In this document: positions 464 through 40,750 of the stretch, piece by piece
Layout of the letters: each line of letters opens with the position of its first letter
Position numbering within the stretch: the first letter of the stretch is position 1
NCBI GenBank assembly: GCA_021843755.1
Contig: JAKBWB010000031.1
Coordinates: 1-64,000 of the forward strand
Source of the DNA: Pseudomonadota bacterium
GTDB lineage: Bacteria; Pseudomonadota; Gammaproteobacteria; Steroidobacterales; Steroidobacteraceae
Direction of reading: 5' to 3'
DNA: 64,000 nucleotides
Notes under the pieces: generated by a model
What the model saw: only the letters and a program-made list of their open reading frames with translations
Told to the model about the DNA's origin: nothing
The model's database searches: none
Translations under genes and position numbers: made by a program

Positions 464-536
464 TGGGCCTGGTAGGATTCGAACCTACGACCAAGGGATT
501 ATGAGTCCCCTGCACTAACCGCTGTGCTACAGGCCC
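464..536 (-). tRNA. tRNA with CAT anticodon, probably tRNA-Ile2 (lysidine-modified); CCA not encoded
   Basis: The minus strand folds as a full cloverleaf: 7-bp acceptor GGGCCTG/CAGGCCC, D stem GCAC/GTGC, anticodon stem GGGGA/TCCCT around loop CTCATAA, and T stem GTAGG/CCTAC around TTCGAAT. The anticodon is CAT. The acceptor and the anticodon-arm context look more like the isoleucine tRNA read by TilS than elongator methionine tRNA, but this is judged by eye. After the discriminator A the genome reads CCG rather than CCA, so the 3' end must be finished by the CCA-adding enzyme, whose gene is at 11347-12576. The 3' end of the tRNA points towards the carrier-protein gene. Confidence 0.92.
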
Positions 537-14554: not shown

Positions 14555-16702
14555 ATGAATACCGTCATGAAGATCGATTCGAAGGACACTGACGCCATTC
14601 CGTTCCAGGAGGCGTCGCTCGACATCTGGGACAAGAAATACCGGTTGACCGCCAAAGACGGTACGGCCATCGATGAGACGATGGACGACACGTACAAGCG
14701 CGTCGCACGCGCGCTCGCGAACGTCGAGCAGGACGGCGTGCGCGAGCACTGGTACGAGCGATTCCTCTGGGCATTGCGCCGCGGCGCCATTCCCGCCGGT
14801 CGCATCACCTCCAATGCGGGGGCCGTGGAGCACAAGCCGGCGACCTCGACGATCAATTGCACGGTCTCGGGGACGATCCGTGATTCGATGGACGACATCC
14901 TGAGCAAGGTTCACGAGGCGGGACTGACGCTCAAGGCCGGATGCGGTATCGGGTACGAGCATTCAACGCTCCGGCCGCGCGGCGCGTACGTGTCGGGCGC
15001 GGGGGCCTACACCTCCGGTCCGCTCTCGTTCATGGATATTTTCGACAAGATGTGCTTCACCGTCTCGTCCGCCGGCGGCCGCCGCGGCGCGCAGATGGGT
15101 ACGTTCGACGTCGGACATCCGGATGCCATGGAATTCATTCGCGCCAAGCGCGAAAGCGGCCGCCTGCGGCAGTTCAATCTCTCGCTGCTCATCACCGACG
15201 AGTTCATGCAGGCGGTGCGCCGCAACGGCGAATGGAAGCTCGCATTCCCGCTGGCGCGCCGGGAATACGAGGCGGAGCGGCCGGATCTCAGCGATCCGGC
15301 CAGGTTCGTCTGGCGCGAATGGCCGATCCACGACGGATATGTCGTGAACGGCGAGGGACTGGTCGCCTGCAAGATCTACAAGACGCTGCCCGCACGTCGC
15401 ATGTGGGACGTCATCATGGCGTCGACCTACGATTTCGCCGAGCCGGGCTTCATTCTCATCGATCGTGTCAATGAGATGAACAACAACTGGTGGTGCGAGA
15501 ACATCCGGGCTACGAATCCGTGTGGCGAGCAACCGCTTCCGCCCTATGGAAGCTGTCTGCTGGGTTCGGTAAACCTGACGCGATTCGTGCGCGAACCGTT
15601 CACTGCGCGCGCGCGCTTCGATTGGGACGAGTATCGCCAGGTCGTCAAGATATTCGCCCGCATGCTCGACAACGTGGTCGAGATCAACGGCCTGCCGCTC
15701 GCGCAGCAGCGCGAGGAAATCATGCGCAAGCGTCGCCACGGCATGGGCTTCCTCGGCCTCGGCAGCGCACTGACGCTGCTGCGGATCAGGTATGGCTCGC
15801 CGGAGTCGGTGAAATTCACCGAGGACGTCGCGCGCGAAATGGCCATCGCCGGTTGGGAAGAGGCGCTCGAGCTGGCCCGCGAGAAGGGGCCTGCGCCCAT
15901 CATGACCGAGGAATTCACGGTCACGCCCGAAATGTTGCGCAAGCGTCCCGAGATGGTCCGGGATGGCTGGAAGGCGGGTGATCGGCTGCCCGGCCGGATT
16001 CTGCACGCCAAGTACAGCCGCTACATGCAACGGATCGCGGCAATCGCTCCGGAGCTGGTGAGCGAGCTGGCCGAGATCGGCGCCCGCTTCAGCCACCACA
16101 CCTCCATTGCGCCCACGGGCACGATTTCGCTGTCCCTCGCGAACAACGCCTCGAACGGCATCGAGCCCTCGTTTGCCCATCACTACTTCCGTAACGTGAT
16201 CCGTCCGGGCCGCAAGACCAAGGAGAAGATCGACGTCTTTTCGTACGAGCTGCTGGCGTATCGCGAGCTGATCAATGCCCGGGCCGACCCCGATGCGAGC
16301 GCCGCGGCCGAGAAGTTGCCCGACTATTTCGCCACCTCGGAAGACATCACCCCGAAGGAGCACGTCGACGTCCAGGCCGCCGCGCAGAAGTGGGTGGACT
16401 CGTCCATATCGAAGACGGCGAACGTACCGACGGACTTCCCGTATGAGAAATTCAAGGATATTTACCTGTACGCCCACGAACAGGGTCTGAAAGGCTGCAC
16501 GACCTTCCGGTTCAACCCCGAGGCGTTCCAGGGTGTGCTCGTCAAGGAGCAGGATCTGAAGAATACGGTCTACAAGTTCACTCTGGATGACGGCACCGTC
16601 GTGGCGGCGCGGGGCGACGAGGAGATCGAGTACGACGGCGAGTTGCATACCGCCGCGAATTTGTTCGATGCGTTGCGCGAGGGGTACTACGGGCGCTTCT
16701 GA
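14555..16702 (+). CDS. nrdJa: Class II (B12-dependent) ribonucleotide reductase, catalytic subunit NrdJa
   Basis: This 715-residue protein reduces ribonucleotides to deoxyribonucleotides with adenosylcobalamin as radical source, so no oxygen is needed. Key features are Cys102 in NCTVSG, the GCGIGYEHSTLRPRG segment, NPCGEQPLPPYGSC with Cys323 and Glu325 at the active site, and the phosphate-binding APTGTISLSLANNASNG. No N-terminal ATP cone is seen. The polypeptide ends without the usual Cys-rich tail, which is encoded by the next gene, as in the split NrdJa/NrdJb enzyme of Pseudomonas. The ATG at 14555 is chosen because the upstream open frame lacks similarity. Confidence 0.95.
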   Translation: MNTVMKIDSKDTDAIPFQEASLDIWDKKYRLTAKDGTAIDETMDDTYKRVARALANVEQDGVREHWYERFLWALRRGAIPAGRITSNAGAVEHKPATSTINCTVSGTIRDSMDDILSKVHEAGLTLKAGCGIGYEHSTLRPRGAYVSGAGAYTSGPLSFMDIFDKMCFTVSSAGGRRGAQMGTFDVGHPDAMEFIRAKRESGRLRQFNLSLLITDEFMQAVRRNGEWKLAFPLARREYEAERPDLSDPARFVWREWPIHDGYVVNGEGLVACKIYKTLPARRMWDVIMASTYDFAEPGFILIDRVNEMNNNWWCENIRATNPCGEQPLPPYGSCLLGSVNLTRFVREPFTARARFDWDEYRQVVKIFARMLDNVVEINGLPLAQQREEIMRKRRHGMGFLGLGSALTLLRIRYGSPESVKFTEDVAREMAIAGWEEALELAREKGPAPIMTEEFTVTPEMLRKRPEMVRDGWKAGDRLPGRILHAKYSRYMQRIAAIAPELVSELAEIGARFSHHTSIAPTGTISLSLANNASNGIEPSFAHHYFRNVIRPGRKTKEKIDVFSYELLAYRELINARADPDASAAAEKLPDYFATSEDITPKEHVDVQAAAQKWVDSSISKTANVPTDFPYEKFKDIYLYAHEQGLKGCTTFRFNPEAFQGVLVKEQDLKNTVYKFTLDDGTVVAARGDEEIEYDGELHTAANLFDALREGYYGRF

Positions 16703-36550: not shown

Positions 36551-37735
36551 GTGAACGTACCCAAACTGCCGCGAGATAGCTGGTTGCTGTGTTTCTCGGC
36601 GTTCAGCGCCGATCTTGGCTATCAGGGCGTGACCGCGCTGTTCCCGCTATATCTGGTCTTCGAGCTGCACGCATCGCTGTACGCGTACGGCCTCGTCACG
36701 GCGATTGCATTCGGCGGCGGAGCATTCGTCGCATTCATCGGCGGCCGCGCCGGCGACCGTCTCGGTCACAAGCGTGTCGCGATCCTGGGCAACACTCTGA
36801 TCCCGCTCATGGCGCTGGCGGGACTGGCCGGCTCGGTATGGCTCGCGGCGCTGTTGTACATCCTCGGCTGGTGGGCCCGCTACTTGCGCTCGCCCCCGCG
36901 CCGGGCTCTGCTGGTCGACGCGACGCCCCCGGAGCAGCGAATCCAAGCCTTCGGCATGCTGCACGCGCTGGATATCGGCGGTGGCATGATTTCGGCATTG
37001 GTCGCGCTGGGTGCGCTCTGGCTGCACTTGGCCGTCGGGCACATCATGCTCTGGGCGGTGATACCGCTGATCGTCTCGACTGTGCTGCTGGTGCTCGTGC
37101 GTCGCGACCGGGTCTACACGGCCCGGACGCCGTCCTCGGCGGGCACGCGGGGCGTTCGGTTGACGGCAGGTGCCCTCATGTTGCCGCTGTTGGTGTCCGC
37201 CACGCTGTATGGCTTCAGTTTCTACAATCTCGGCTTCCCGATTCTCACCGCGGCGCGCGCTCATCGGACGGCGGGCTACGAATGGGGCGTATTGGCGTAT
37301 GTCGTCTATCTGGGTATCTCGGCCTGCAGCGGTTATCTTCTCGGGCTGCGCCGGGGTTCGGCCGTACGCTCGCTGTGGCTGATCGGCTATCTGGTTTCGG
37401 CGCTCGGCTCCGGTCTGATCGGTCTGGGTGAATGGCTGCACCTTCCGGCGCTGTCGTTCTACCTCGCGGTCGCCGTGCTCGGATTCGGCATGGGAGCGGT
37501 CGAGACGTTCGAGCCGGCGCTGGTTTCCTCGGCGGTCAGCCACACGCGTCTGGGGCGAGGTATGGGCTTCCTGTCGGTGTCACGCGCCAGCGGCCAGCTC
37601 CTGGCGAATCTGATCATGGGGCTCCTGTTCGCATTTGGACCGGCCGTGCCTTATTTCTACGCAAGCGCCTCGGCGCTTCTGGCCGCGATCGTATTCGGCA
37701 GCGTCGAGCTGGCCGGCGCCAGGTGGCGCGTCTAA
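36551..37735 (+). CDS. MFS transporter
   Basis: The 394-residue membrane protein has about twelve helices and the MFS loop motif GGRAGDRLGHKRV between helices 2 and 3. The motif RSPPRRALLVDATPP follows helix 4. Substrate is unknown; drug or metabolite export is typical of this type. It starts at GTG 36551, 76 bases after the P1B ATPase, so both might be co-expressed. It is followed by a long gap. Confidence 0.88.
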   Translation: MNVPKLPRDSWLLCFSAFSADLGYQGVTALFPLYLVFELHASLYAYGLVTAIAFGGGAFVAFIGGRAGDRLGHKRVAILGNTLIPLMALAGLAGSVWLAALLYILGWWARYLRSPPRRALLVDATPPEQRIQAFGMLHALDIGGGMISALVALGALWLHLAVGHIMLWAVIPLIVSTVLLVLVRRDRVYTARTPSSAGTRGVRLTAGALMLPLLVSATLYGFSFYNLGFPILTAARAHRTAGYEWGVLAYVVYLGISACSGYLLGLRRGSAVRSLWLIGYLVSALGSGLIGLGEWLHLPALSFYLAVAVLGFGMGAVETFEPALVSSAVSHTRLGRGMGFLSVSRASGQLLANLIMGLLFAFGPAVPYFYASASALLAAIVFGSVELAGARWRV

Positions 37736-37795
37736 GCGCCTTGGCAGGGTCGGCTTGCCCGAAGCGCTGGGCGCGCCTTCGGGCCCATCATTAAC

Positions 37796-37824
37796 CAAAA
37801 AGAAGACCCCGCTTGCGCGGGGTC
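37796..37824 (-). terminator. Intrinsic terminator on the minus strand
   Basis: Read on the minus strand, GACCCCGC-GCAA-GCGGGGTC (37805-37824) forms a perfect 8-bp stem with a 4-base loop and is followed by TTCTTTTTGG. The T tract is on the minus side only; on the plus strand no T run follows. It therefore ends leftward transcription, although no protein gene on that strand is recognised nearby. See the candidate small RNA. Confidence 0.75.
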
Positions 37825-37979
37825 GGTCGCTTGCTTGCATCGAGTCGTGCTTATTTTTTTTCTAGGTCGGCACGGTACGGCATGCGTCTGCGGTACGCAG
37901 TGCGAGCCCGTGCTTTCTCGGAATTTCCGTGGTGTCGCGTTGTGCTTCCCCCCTTGGACCGGCGCCCGGTCTCAGGTGG
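37796..37979 (-). ncRNA. Candidate sigma-54-dependent small RNA
   Basis: A transcript from the predicted start near 37979 to the intrinsic terminator would be about 184 nt. It would contain a 5' hairpin GACCGG-GCG-CCGGTC (37957-37971), a G-rich run in AAGGGGGGAAG, two further GGA-containing spots, a small hairpin CTGCG-TAC-CGCAG, an eight-A stretch and the terminator hairpin. No convincing protein is encoded; the longest late frame starting with ATG has 10 codons. The RNA is inferred from promoter, dyad and terminator alone and has no family I recognise. Confidence 0.5.
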
Positions 37980-37989
37980 CCCACAATGA

Positions 37990-38006
37990 AGCAATACGCG
38001 TGCCAG
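37990..38006 (-). promoter_or_regulatory. Sigma-54 (RpoN) promoter, full consensus match
   Basis: On the minus strand the sequence is CTGGCACGCGTATTGCT. It matches TGGCACG-N4-TTGCW at every fixed position, with GG and GC at the right -24/-12 spacing. Transcription should start about 12 bases further on, near 37979. It lies between two plus-strand genes and has no minus-strand protein gene downstream. Confidence 0.65.
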
Positions 38007-38102
38007 AAACGGGCGCCGGGCGCCCCAGAGGAGACATCGGCCGCCTCTTGCGGCACTCATGCGACGTAATGTTCAATTACCATCCGTCATTTCGCCCATT
38101 GT

Positions 38103-38121
38103 TGCTGTTGCGACGACAGCA
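38103..38121. promoter_or_regulatory. Dyad upstream of the sigma-54 promoter, possible enhancer site
   Basis: TGCTGT (38103-38108) and ACAGCA (38116-38121) form an inverted repeat with a 7-base gap. Its centre is about 130 bases upstream of the predicted sigma-54 start, a distance typical for enhancer-binding activators of RpoN. The activator is unknown. Confidence 0.4.
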
Positions 38122-38260
38122 CACACGTTGCTTCATGGCGAATTTCGATGAGATGTAAGACTTTTCGACGTAATTTTGATTTCCCTGAACTGTCCCGCGC
38201 TTGACATTGGCCATTAACTCCTTGATTTCGAAGAATTAATAGGGACTATTCGAGGCGTAA

Positions 38261-40750
38261 ATGATTTCGACGGGCCGGAATAAGATAGAACGCGCGGTCT
38301 TCGATCTACTTTGGATCATCGTGCTGCTGTCGTTGGGGGGGCAGGCCCTGGCAGCCGGCAGCGGATCAGTCTCCGGGGCGCGGCCAACGATCTATCGCGT
38401 GCGACCGGGCGATACACTGTCGGGCATTGCGGCGCGATATGGCCTCAGTCTTCAGGCACTCGCGCGACTGAACGGTATTCAACCCGACGGCGTGCTGCGC
38501 ATCGGAGAGCAATTGCGTGTCCCCGACGCGGGCTCGCCATCGCGGCTGGCAGCTGACGCCTCGTCCGCGCCGGCACTGCCGACAGCGTTCTACCGGGTAC
38601 AGCCCGGTGACACGCTGTCGGGCATTGCGACGCGATATGGCCTCAGTGTTCAGGCTCTTGCGCGGCTAAATGGCATCGAGCCCGGCGGCATGCTGCGTGC
38701 GGGGGAGCGGCTGCGTGTGCCCCGAACGGGGTCGAGTGCCTCGCTGCTGTCGTTCGGACCTGCCTTTCCCTGCCCATCGGTACTGCAGCCTGCGGTCCAT
38801 TTCTGGATTCGCGTTTACACCCAGGTGGGCACCAATGGGGGCTTCCTGCACGATCCGAACAACCTCGGTGTGGTCTACCAGACGGTGCATTTCCCGCCAG
38901 GCAGCTCCCCCTGGGAGCGTCAACACATCGTGGACATCGATCGTGACCGGCTCGCCGCCGAGCTGCGCCGTATCGCCGCCGGTGCCCGGCCGCTGACGCC
39001 GCAGGAGCGGCGTATGCGGGCGCTCTGGGGCCCCGACGTGAGTGCCGCGCGCCTGCTGCGGGCGGCGGATGACATTCGATTCCAGCTCGGACAGTCGAAT
39101 CGATTCAAGGCAGGTTTGATCCGTTCCGGCGCCTGGCAGCATGCGATCGCGCGGGCGCTCGCTCAGCAGGGGCTGCCACCGGAGCTCGCCGCGCTGCCGC
39201 TGGTGGAGTCGTCCTACAATCCGCTGGCGTTTTCCAAGGACGGCGCTGCGGGTATCTGGCAGTTCATGCCGGGTACGGCACAGCGCTTCCTGCGCATGAA
39301 CTCGGCCGTCGATCAGCGGCTCGATCCGTTCAGCGCCACGGTGGCGGCCGCGCAGCTGCTCGCCTACAACCATCGGATCCTGGGGACCTGGCCGCTGGCG
39401 ATTACGGCCTACAATCATGGCCTCGCAGGGATGCTGCGCGCCGTTCGCACCGTCGGCACCAAGAACATCGGCGCCATCGTGTTGCGCTACCGGACGCCCA
39501 TGTTCGGATTTGCATCGCGCAATTTCTACGCATCGTTCCTGGCGGCCCTGTACGTCGATGAGCATGCCCATCGCTATTTCGGCAATTTGCACGAACTGCC
39601 CGAGGAGCGATTCCACGAACTGTCATTGCCCGGCTATGTGTCCATGGCTGCGCTCGAGAAGGCGCTCGATGTGCCTGTTGCCCGCCTGCGCGAACTCAAC
39701 CCGGCGCTTCTGCCGCCGGTGTGGGACGGCGAGCTGGATGTGCCGAAGGGCTATCGTCTGCGCTTGCCGGAGCGAGGGCCGATCTGGACTGTTGCCGATC
39801 TCATCGGCCGTCTCGGCCCGGGCGCGTTGCTTGCCGAGCAACTGCGCCCGGCCATCTACCGCGTGCAATGGGGCGATACACTCTCGGGCATCGCGGCGCG
39901 CTACGGGCTGAGTATCTGGACACTGGCGCAATTCAACGGCATCCAGGCTGACGGCATCTTGCGCGTCGGGGAACGTCTGCGGCTGCCCGGGGCTGCGCCG
40001 CCGGCGGCGCTGTTGGCGGCGAACGCCGGGCCCGGACCCGGACTGCCTGGAAGCTATCGGGTGCAGCCTGGGGATACGCTCTCGGGCATTGCCGCCCGCT
40101 ACGGGATGAGCACCTGGGCGCTGGCTCGACTGAACGGCATCCAGGCTGACGGCATCTTGCGCGTCGGGGAGCGCCTGCGGCTGCCCGGCCCAGGGCAGCC
40201 GGCGGCCCTGCCGGCGGGCATCGTCGCAAGGGCGGCCCGGCCGTCCTCCACCGACAAGGTGGAGGCGCGAGGGCCCGGGCTCGGTCCAGGCGGCCACTCT
40301 GCGCCGAGTCTCGATCCAACGGACTATTCAGTGGCATCGAACGATACGATCCGGGTGGCCGCGGCCGAATCGCTCGGGTACTACGCCGAGTGGCTGGGGG
40401 TCAGCGCCATGGATCTGCGTCGGATCAATCATTTGCGCGTCGGCCAATCGCTGTGGATCGGCGAGCGGATCCGGCTGGATTTCCGGCACGTGACGCCCGC
40501 ACAGTTCGAGCAGCAGCGGGTGGCCTACCATCGAGCCCTCGAAGCAAGCTACTTCGCGACGCACCGTATCGACGGCGTGTTCTACTACGTGACGCGCAGT
40601 GGCGACTCGTTGTGGACGTTGATGCAGCGCTTCCCGGAACTGCCCGAATGGCTCCTGCGCCAGTACAACCCTCATACCGATTTCTTTGCGCTCAAGCCCG
40701 GCACGCGCCTGGTCGTCCCGCGGATCGAGGCCGTCGCCGCAGGACGCTGA
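38261..40750 (+). CDS. LysM-rich membrane-bound lytic transglycosylase (MltD-like)
   Basis: The 829-residue envelope protein cleaves peptidoglycan glycan strands. After a signal-like segment (LLWIIVLLSLGGQALA) come two LysM domains (about 45-90 and 110-152), then the SLT domain with the catalytic Glu in LVESSYNPLAFSKDGAAG and QFMPGTAQRF. A further LysM-like part follows, then two near-identical LysM copies (about 535-575 and 600-642), a degenerate one, and a final LysM ending KPGTRLVVPRI. MltD of E. coli has LysM only at the C terminus and fewer copies, so this is an expanded form. The L,D-transpeptidase gene follows 63 bases later. Confidence 0.92.
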   Translation: MISTGRNKIERAVFDLLWIIVLLSLGGQALAAGSGSVSGARPTIYRVRPGDTLSGIAARYGLSLQALARLNGIQPDGVLRIGEQLRVPDAGSPSRLAADASSAPALPTAFYRVQPGDTLSGIATRYGLSVQALARLNGIEPGGMLRAGERLRVPRTGSSASLLSFGPAFPCPSVLQPAVHFWIRVYTQVGTNGGFLHDPNNLGVVYQTVHFPPGSSPWERQHIVDIDRDRLAAELRRIAAGARPLTPQERRMRALWGPDVSAARLLRAADDIRFQLGQSNRFKAGLIRSGAWQHAIARALAQQGLPPELAALPLVESSYNPLAFSKDGAAGIWQFMPGTAQRFLRMNSAVDQRLDPFSATVAAAQLLAYNHRILGTWPLAITAYNHGLAGMLRAVRTVGTKNIGAIVLRYRTPMFGFASRNFYASFLAALYVDEHAHRYFGNLHELPEERFHELSLPGYVSMAALEKALDVPVARLRELNPALLPPVWDGELDVPKGYRLRLPERGPIWTVADLIGRLGPGALLAEQLRPAIYRVQWGDTLSGIAARYGLSIWTLAQFNGIQADGILRVGERLRLPGAAPPAALLAANAGPGPGLPGSYRVQPGDTLSGIAARYGMSTWALARLNGIQADGILRVGERLRLPGPGQPAALPAGIVARAARPSSTDKVEARGPGLGPGGHSAPSLDPTDYSVASNDTIRVAAAESLGYYAEWLGVSAMDLRRINHLRVGQSLWIGERIRLDFRHVTPAQFEQQRVAYHRALEASYFATHRIDGVFYYVTRSGDSLWTLMQRFPELPEWLLRQYNPHTDFFALKPGTRLVVPRIEAVAAGR
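39935..40170 (+). repeat. 38-base perfect repeat inside the LysM array
   Basis: Bases 39935-39972 and 40133-40170 are identical and encode the core NGIQADGILRVGE in two neighbouring LysM domains. The identity at nucleotide level shows recent duplication or gene conversion within the gene. Confidence 0.85.

Follow-up and report, generated by a model that had tools for sequence, protein, structure and literature searches.

The analysed stretch of DNA (hereafter the window, 64,000 nt) holds, between a convergent MFS transporter gene and a divergent mltD-like gene, a gap in which a sigma-54 promoter, a putative small RNA (sRNA) and an intrinsic terminator follow each other on the minus strand (Table 1). 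The best NCBIfam model for the mltD-like gene was murein transglycosylase D, with a score below the cut-off. The full RpoN consensus that an earlier note on this DNA had pointed out was borne out by a pattern scan of the whole window, in which TGGCACGCGTATTGCT was the sole mismatch-free match to TGGCACGNNNNTTGCW; when up to two mismatches were allowed, 10 matches were found in the whole window against a chance mean of 11.9, which is no excess. The RNA is predicted to start at 37979, and the perfect 8-bp hairpin placed by the same note about 180 bases after the start was recovered as GACCCCGC/GCGGGGTC followed by TTCTTTTT, ending at 37797. Some open frames lie in the gap (for example 69 aa on the minus strand, 37851-38060) and none is conserved among relatives, in line with the note's view that no credible protein gene is present. 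Elsewhere in the window nrdJ lies at 14555-16699, and a tRNA gene (464-536, minus strand) was the only gathering-level Rfam match.

Table 1. Features of the locus and their positions in the window.
Feature	Position	Strand	Basis or remark
MFS transporter gene, convergent, downstream neighbour	36551-37735	plus	Pfam MFS_1
Small RNA, subtype A, about 183 nt	37797-37979	minus	block kept from promoter to terminator
Intrinsic terminator GACCCCGCGCAAGCGGGGTCTTCTTTTT	37797-37824	minus	8-bp stem unvaried in 17 sequences
3' element CACGACTCGATGCAAGCAAGCGACCGAC, candidate pairing seed	37822-37849	minus	conserved across alignments
A-rich single-stranded tract, candidate Hfq distal-face (ARN) site	37846-37862	minus	alignments; putative binding
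Central stem-loop GCACGG...CCGTGC	37870-37913	minus	97.0% of cells paired in the subtype A alignment
5' hairpin GACCGGGCGCCGGTC, then G-rich stretch AAGGGGGGAAG	37957-37971	minus	fold; varies among species
Sigma-54 promoter TGGCACGCGTATTGCT, -24 GG / -12 GC	37990-38005	minus	perfect consensus match, kept in relatives
Second upstream element, degenerate copy ACGTCGCA, CRP-half-site-like	38056-38070	minus	CGTCACA near -87 in relatives
Dyad TGCTGT-N7-ACAGCA	38103-38121	minus	124-142 nt upstream of the predicted start
17-nt box CGTCGAAAAGTCTTACA, candidate activator site, PEP-CTERM-box form	38154-38170	minus	about -191 to -175
mltD-like gene (LysM repeats and SLT transglycosylase), divergent, usual neighbour	38261-40750	plus	Pfam LysM, SLT

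A BLASTN search with 37780-38150 against 60 relatives matched 21 genomes, the window's own included, all from one genus; the two strongest foreign matches cover the block from promoter to terminator and the rest are shorter. The match in G011 (L016) covers the region upstream of the promoter only; what remains there, at 1501-1557 and beyond, is upstream sequence and part of the RNA, with neither promoter nor terminator, and this copy has apparently decayed. Genome contigs were also scanned for the 3' element with a query that held no promoter information (CAAGCAAGCGACCGAC plus the start of the terminator). This gave 37 loci, and pooling with the earlier loci left 37 distinct stretches, of which 33 carry TGGCA-N5-TTGC, at a distance of 174-198 nt from where the matched element ends; as background, the exact TGGCAY-N5-TTGC occurred in 99 of 7400 random 230-nt stretches from the same loci, sRNA loci included. 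L024, one of the four exceptions, has no promoter and is coding-like; L030 has a degenerate promoter (TGGCACGGCTGATGC), L038 has only 39 nt of upstream sequence and no terminator was seen in it, and L046, with only 125 nt of upstream sequence, is otherwise alike. The earlier note would have given up its reading if promoter and hairpin were not conserved in relatives; both recur there with the 3' element at fixed spacing, and this joint recurrence is more than chance. The scan loci are labelled mostly as Gammaproteobacteria or Proteobacteria MAGs, with four Steroidobacteraceae (L029, L050-L052); L029 is on the same contig as L017, in a genome within the window's genus, and odd labels were Actinomycetota for L024 and Acidiphilium for L038.

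Model R1, built on subtype A (see below), matched 59 of the 396 genomes searched in the order: 38 of the 41 in the window's genus and 21 outside it. The misses in the genus are G001, G353 and G011, and G001 has the unit according to the other scans. We read 33 of the weaker places, including all 21 outside the genus, among which three are true sRNA units (L098 in genus g32, L099 in g34 and L101 in g23), seven in g25 (L089-L095) belong to a PEP-CTERM gene as its 3' UTR, and 11 are other things (L096, L097, L100, L102-L106, L119, L120, L121; L119 is a PEP-CTERM 3' UTR without the seed). L108 and L109, second R1 matches within the genus, are unrelated. With L237 (g34) and L228 (g36), promoter, 3' module and terminator are found together in L098, L099, L101 and these two loci, which come from four other genera in all; in g23 the unit is present in one of the five loci read. 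Model R2, which used sequence only and stricter filters on 369 genomes of the class, found the window's own genome and two weak, chance-like matches, one without promoter or terminator (L299) and one without the core (L298), and a plasmid search gave no match to the unit. Second copies of the sRNA unit within one genome were seen in G005 (L107) and G010 (L188); L107 looks like a segmental duplication because the sequence around the mltD start is kept, with no mltD frame found. In L101 a long inverted repeat (2103-2236) stands right after the sRNA terminator, with matches to Rfam microRNA families below gathering scores.

The fold of the unit had a z of -2.34 against shuffles, and its members fall into two subtypes of 17 sequences each: subtype A, to which the window belongs, with ACGACTCGATGCAAGCAAGCGACCGACC, and subtype B, with CTCCTC(CA)CACACAAGCAAGCGACCGA. 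The 3' element is identical in all 17 subtype A sequences from ACGACTCG onward, and its core GCAAGC..GACC survives with small changes in the wider set, other genera included. An anti-Shine-Dalgarno-like CUCCUC precedes GCAAGCAAGCGACC in subtype B and in most other genera, and subtype A is without it. The earlier note had described G-rich and A-rich single-stranded parts; the A-rich tract stood, as it forms with GCAAGCAAGCGACC the core common to members, and the G-rich stretch did not, being confined to most subtype A members. Covarying stems, which the note had proposed as a check, were found in subtype B, where the central stem has changes on both sides at 6 of 7 pairs and its covariation score was reached by none of 500 shuffles and was lost when partners were slid. 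Subtype A has too little variation for much covariation (2 of 22 pairs overall, and both-side changes at 2 of 14 pairs of the central stem), and an alignment joining the subtypes gave a weak fold. The terminator is present in the rows of the alignments. Like an Hfq-type sRNA, the unit has a Rho-independent terminator with a U tail and a 3' element predicted to be unpaired, in which a hairpin of two pairs is predicted on the alignment. Hfq is encoded in the window's genome, and ARN is the binding rule of the Hfq distal face.

Overall, the gap very probably holds a true gene for a sigma-54-switched small regulatory RNA of about 180 bases that is kept in dozens of related bacteria. The comparative sequence data support the earlier proposal of a sigma-54-controlled regulatory RNA of about 184 nt, with promoter, structure and terminator kept in dozens of genomes, neither a conserved frame nor an Rfam match, and transcription predicted, and from them we would judge the sigma-54 small-RNA gene to be real with little doubt.

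The RNA usually diverges from the mltD-like gene, which was beside the sRNA in most relatives read, and the distance from the mltD start to the predicted RNA start is 280-314 nt in loci with a called start and about 2.5 kb in G003. The convergent gene downstream is an MFS transporter in many subtype A loci; many subtype B loci have a frame ending CLNCGDSKCG and then nrdJ (names partly by eye). The nrdJ frame of L052 (4500-7964) has 1155 aa versus 715 aa in L056, with what by eye is an intein-like insert. Regions upstream of mltD were surveyed across the family: 154 of 200 genomes had an mltD match, and 40 regions were fetched. Sigma-54 units without a frame stand beside mltD in g34, g36 and g39 with the module present (altered in g39). 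With the 3' module degenerate or absent, such units were seen in g40 and g31, at one of the three g27 loci and at two g19 loci. No clear sigma-54 site was found beside mltD in the loci of g20 (4), g21 (2), g22 (3), g26 (2), g28 (3), g29 (4), g30 (1), g33 (1), g35 (3) and g74 (1), in another four g23 loci, or next to the second copy of mltD that two g1 genomes have (L263, L264).

Upstream of the promoter, a 17-nt box of the form NGTC-N9-(T/G)ACA was found in 45 of 49 loci, with GTCG in all but one; it is commonly NGTCG-N8-(T/G)ACA, and most subtype B copies end in TGACA. It lies at -190 to -195 in 40 of the 45 (overall range -147 to -214); L033 and L101 are without it, and L035 and L050 end too soon upstream. 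For proteobacterial PEP-CTERM genes Haft and co-workers describe a 17-nt motif 1 that ends in TTTACA and precedes a sigma-54 site by 62.8 nt on average, with a spacer range of 32-92 nt, and they proposed PrsR as the binder of this PEP-CTERM box (PMC1569441). The sRNA box resembles that motif in form. Its spacer to the promoter is 148 nt in the window, outside the published range, 140-159 nt in g1 loci and 42-54 in g27 and g19, and some of these boxes may instead serve the divergent mltD gene. Where a box-like sequence overlaps the mltD start codon, it was taken as ribosome site plus start codon. The dyad TGCTGT-N7-ACAGCA, which the earlier note had regarded as the activator site, is present in the window, and its role as such was dismissed, as it was found in one of 49 loci and is absent from the near relative G206. 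The second upstream element, CGTCACA, was counted in 35 of the 47 upstream regions. It may be read as a CRP site (TGTGA-N6-TCACA), with a perfect one in L013 and L025 only. The pattern GTCACA-N46-62-sigma-54 was found in 42 of 58 genus genomes, chiefly at the sRNA, and its other places include one pilA (G155), one PEP-CTERM gene (G024:C30), G033:C97 and G031:C297. Promoters of flgB type with sigma-54 sites also carry GTCACA at the sRNA-promoter distance in G011 (L173), G006, G024 and G026; in G011 the flgB frame itself was read, and the other three were recognised by promoter sequence.

As for the protein acting at the box, PrsR as the sole activator was rejected for the window's genome, where no match exceeded the cut-off: in G000 (96.8% complete) the best match reached 367 bits against a cut-off of 502.6, and for the protein concerned (G000:C61) the highest-scoring NCBIfam model is the PEP-CTERM-box regulator. 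Of 37 genus genomes, 22 have PrsR above the cut-off. As in the window's genome, the sRNA is kept with no PrsR above the cut-off in G018, G026, G027, G032 and G036 (each at least 90% complete), of which G027 has a strong partial match (354 bits, positions 203-444). The window's draft genome encodes eight AAA+ activators, the C-termini of all of which were read, and none of them is GlrR-like; six other genus genomes examined have a GlrR-like regulator (one with GlrR as its best model, at 612 bits against a cut-off of 763, and five judged by C-terminus). PilR was also discarded as a candidate: the GTCACTTTGTGAC-like palindromes seen in the pilA promoters read in the genus are absent from the sRNA region, and the common GTCACA hexamer alone is weak. 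Those pilA promoters (nine in L210-L223, and L157) have GTCAC-TTTGTGAC-like palindromes, which by their sequence are possible PilR sites, and several have an element TTCAA-N3-CTTAC that is IHF-like.

The link to surface proteins comes from the sister genus g25. In all seven g25 loci fetched, the place next to mltD holds a PEP-CTERM protein gene of about 250 aa (called with Pfam PF07589 for L091 and by homology for the other loci). This gene is preceded by TGGCACARGCCTTGCT, and a 17-nt box like that of the sRNA lies 128-138 nt upstream of it. Its stop codon lies within GGATAAC in five of the seven, followed by ACAAGAAGAAG, CTCCTCAGCAAGCAAGC(AAGC)GACC and a terminator, and this 3' UTR aligns with the 3' module of the sRNA. 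One of the four g20 loci read (L248) also has a homologous PEP-CTERM gene (43% identity) beside mltD, with no clear sigma-54 site by scan. In an NrdJ tree of 28 rows, where 9 of 25 inner branches are well supported and 9 are open, g25 is nested among sRNA-bearing genera; the g23 rows of this tree are genomes without the sRNA unit. In the prsR region of G024 (L176), a PEP-CTERM-like gene (motif by pattern only) has CGTCGAATTCCTTTACA, 63 nt and TGGCAC. In another organism, one PEP-CTERM gene has been shown to be RpoN-dependent (PMC9850573). A locus in another family of the order (L120, G044:C13, 1916 onward) has a box CGTCGGCATTCTTTACA, 74 nt and TGGCACGGCTACTGCA, then about 200 A-rich nt with no clear gene and a terminator, possibly a second PEP-box-driven small RNA outside this family.

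The earlier note did not recognise a described RNA family, and the Rfam search it had proposed agreed: release 15 gave no gathering-level match in the sRNA region, with sub-threshold ones only at E up to 10, and the CrcZ and GlmY/GlmZ models did not match the unit. GlmY and GlmZ, of about 180-200 nt, are sigma-54-driven sRNAs linked to envelope control, as is proposed here. In enterics QseF/GlrR drives glmY from sites TGTCN10GACA, and these resemble the sRNA box NGTC-N9-(G/T)ACA, which has one base less between the half-sites (PMC8745638). Unlike GlmY/GlmZ, the present RNA has no Rfam match and no GlrR-like protein among the eight activators of its genome. The CbrB-dependent CrcZ/CrcY of Pseudomonas are likewise stand-alone sigma-54 small RNAs with A-rich motifs; CrcZ is longer, has several CA motifs and titrates Hfq/Crc, whereas the window's RNA has one tract and an invariant 3' element. 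S17/bdhR1 (RF02278) of Bordetella, a betaproteobacterium, is described as an Hfq-dependent sRNA with a precursor of about 190 nt, in which a stretch of 27 nt ahead of the terminator is fully conserved, and its 3' part is released by RNase E (PMC11722255). The layout is the same as in the window's sRNA, and the differences are its sigma-A promoter and host class (PMC11722255); RF02278 gave no match at E up to 10 in 37780-38150 or at E up to 1 in five relatives. The PEP-CTERM box/PrsK-PrsR regulon is alike in having a sigma-54 promoter behind a 17-nt box of this form and in the PEP-CTERM product of g25, and differs in that the product in the window's genus is non-coding, the window's genome has no PrsR above the cut-off and the box lies about 148 rather than about 63 nt away (PMC1569441). 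Among the matches listed from the open-licence literature, none describes the window's RNA or places an sRNA in a PEP-CTERM regulon.

The segment is likely to be a sigma-54-dependent gene that stands alone and whose product is a trans-acting regulatory RNA of about 183 nt, and judging from its sequence features the RNA would probably be of the Hfq type. An enhancer-binding protein would act at the conserved 17-nt box near -190 to open the -24/-12 promoter, and the transcript, according to sequence and covariation, would fold into the 5' hairpin, the conserved central stem and the Rho-independent terminator. The ARN-like A-rich tract and the U tail may recruit Hfq, and the near-invariant GCAAGCAAGCGACC could then be offered for pairing with mRNAs, most simply by blocking ribosome sites. 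The short forms in g23 and g34 (L101, L099), which hold little beyond the module, would fit the module being the working part. The unit may function in an envelope or exopolysaccharide programme, since in g25 the gene of a PEP-CTERM surface protein has the same box, promoter and 3' module; a regulon tied to PEP-CTERM or envelope functions has, in our view, a little under an even chance of being correct. More tentatively, there may be one sigma-54 unit under a PEP-CTERM-type box with two exchangeable forms at one chromosomal place, an mRNA in g25 for an exported PEP-CTERM protein with a regulatory 3' UTR module and, in the window's genus and several others, a stand-alone sRNA lacking the frame, the module of ARN tract, CUCCUC/GCAAGCAAGCGACC and terminator being the agent in both and the gene having passed from mRNA to sRNA or the reverse.

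The g25 gene could also be read the other way, with the sRNA as the remnant of a PEP-CTERM gene whose promoter and UTRs outlived the lost frame and whose RNA has little function. The g25 frame does sit between the same promoter and 3' module, and the g20 homologue adjoins mltD as well. A relic is expected to decay, yet the 3' element, stem and promoter are kept over two subtypes and several genera, and non-coding sigma-54 units are also found in three genera (g19, g27 and g31) that fall outside the clade of g25 in the NrdJ tree, in which many forks are open; we consider this origin unlikely. The same low probability is given to a CrcZ-like titrating RNA, in which the A-rich tract would sequester Hfq and the remainder would be a scaffold. 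The sigma-54 promoter, the AACAACGAGAA-type tracts and the presence of Hfq agree with titration, but there is a single A-rich tract instead of several, the most conserved bases are outside it and no Rfam match was obtained.

An action in cis, either as a long leader or read-through unit on a neighbour or as a convergent antisense RNA to the downstream gene, is suggested by the convergent gene lying at most 70 nt away in several loci. With a terminator in the alignment rows and a downstream gene that changes (MFS versus the nrdJ region) while the RNA stays, this is very improbable. Least probable of all is a small-protein gene: frames reach 58 codons in single species, but start, length and frame differ by species, no reading frame is conserved among the relatives' RNAs, and 4 of 17 subtype B RNAs have no frame of at least 8 codons.

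As a trans-acting sRNA, the unit would represent an undescribed sRNA family in a gammaproteobacterial family that has been little studied, and it hints at an RNA arm of PEP-CTERM-type surface-protein regulons. If the reading of one unit with two forms is true, cells making the surface matrix would also make the RNA regulator of that matrix. With coding and non-coding forms in sister genera, the birth of an sRNA from a protein gene, or its capture by one, would be directly testable.
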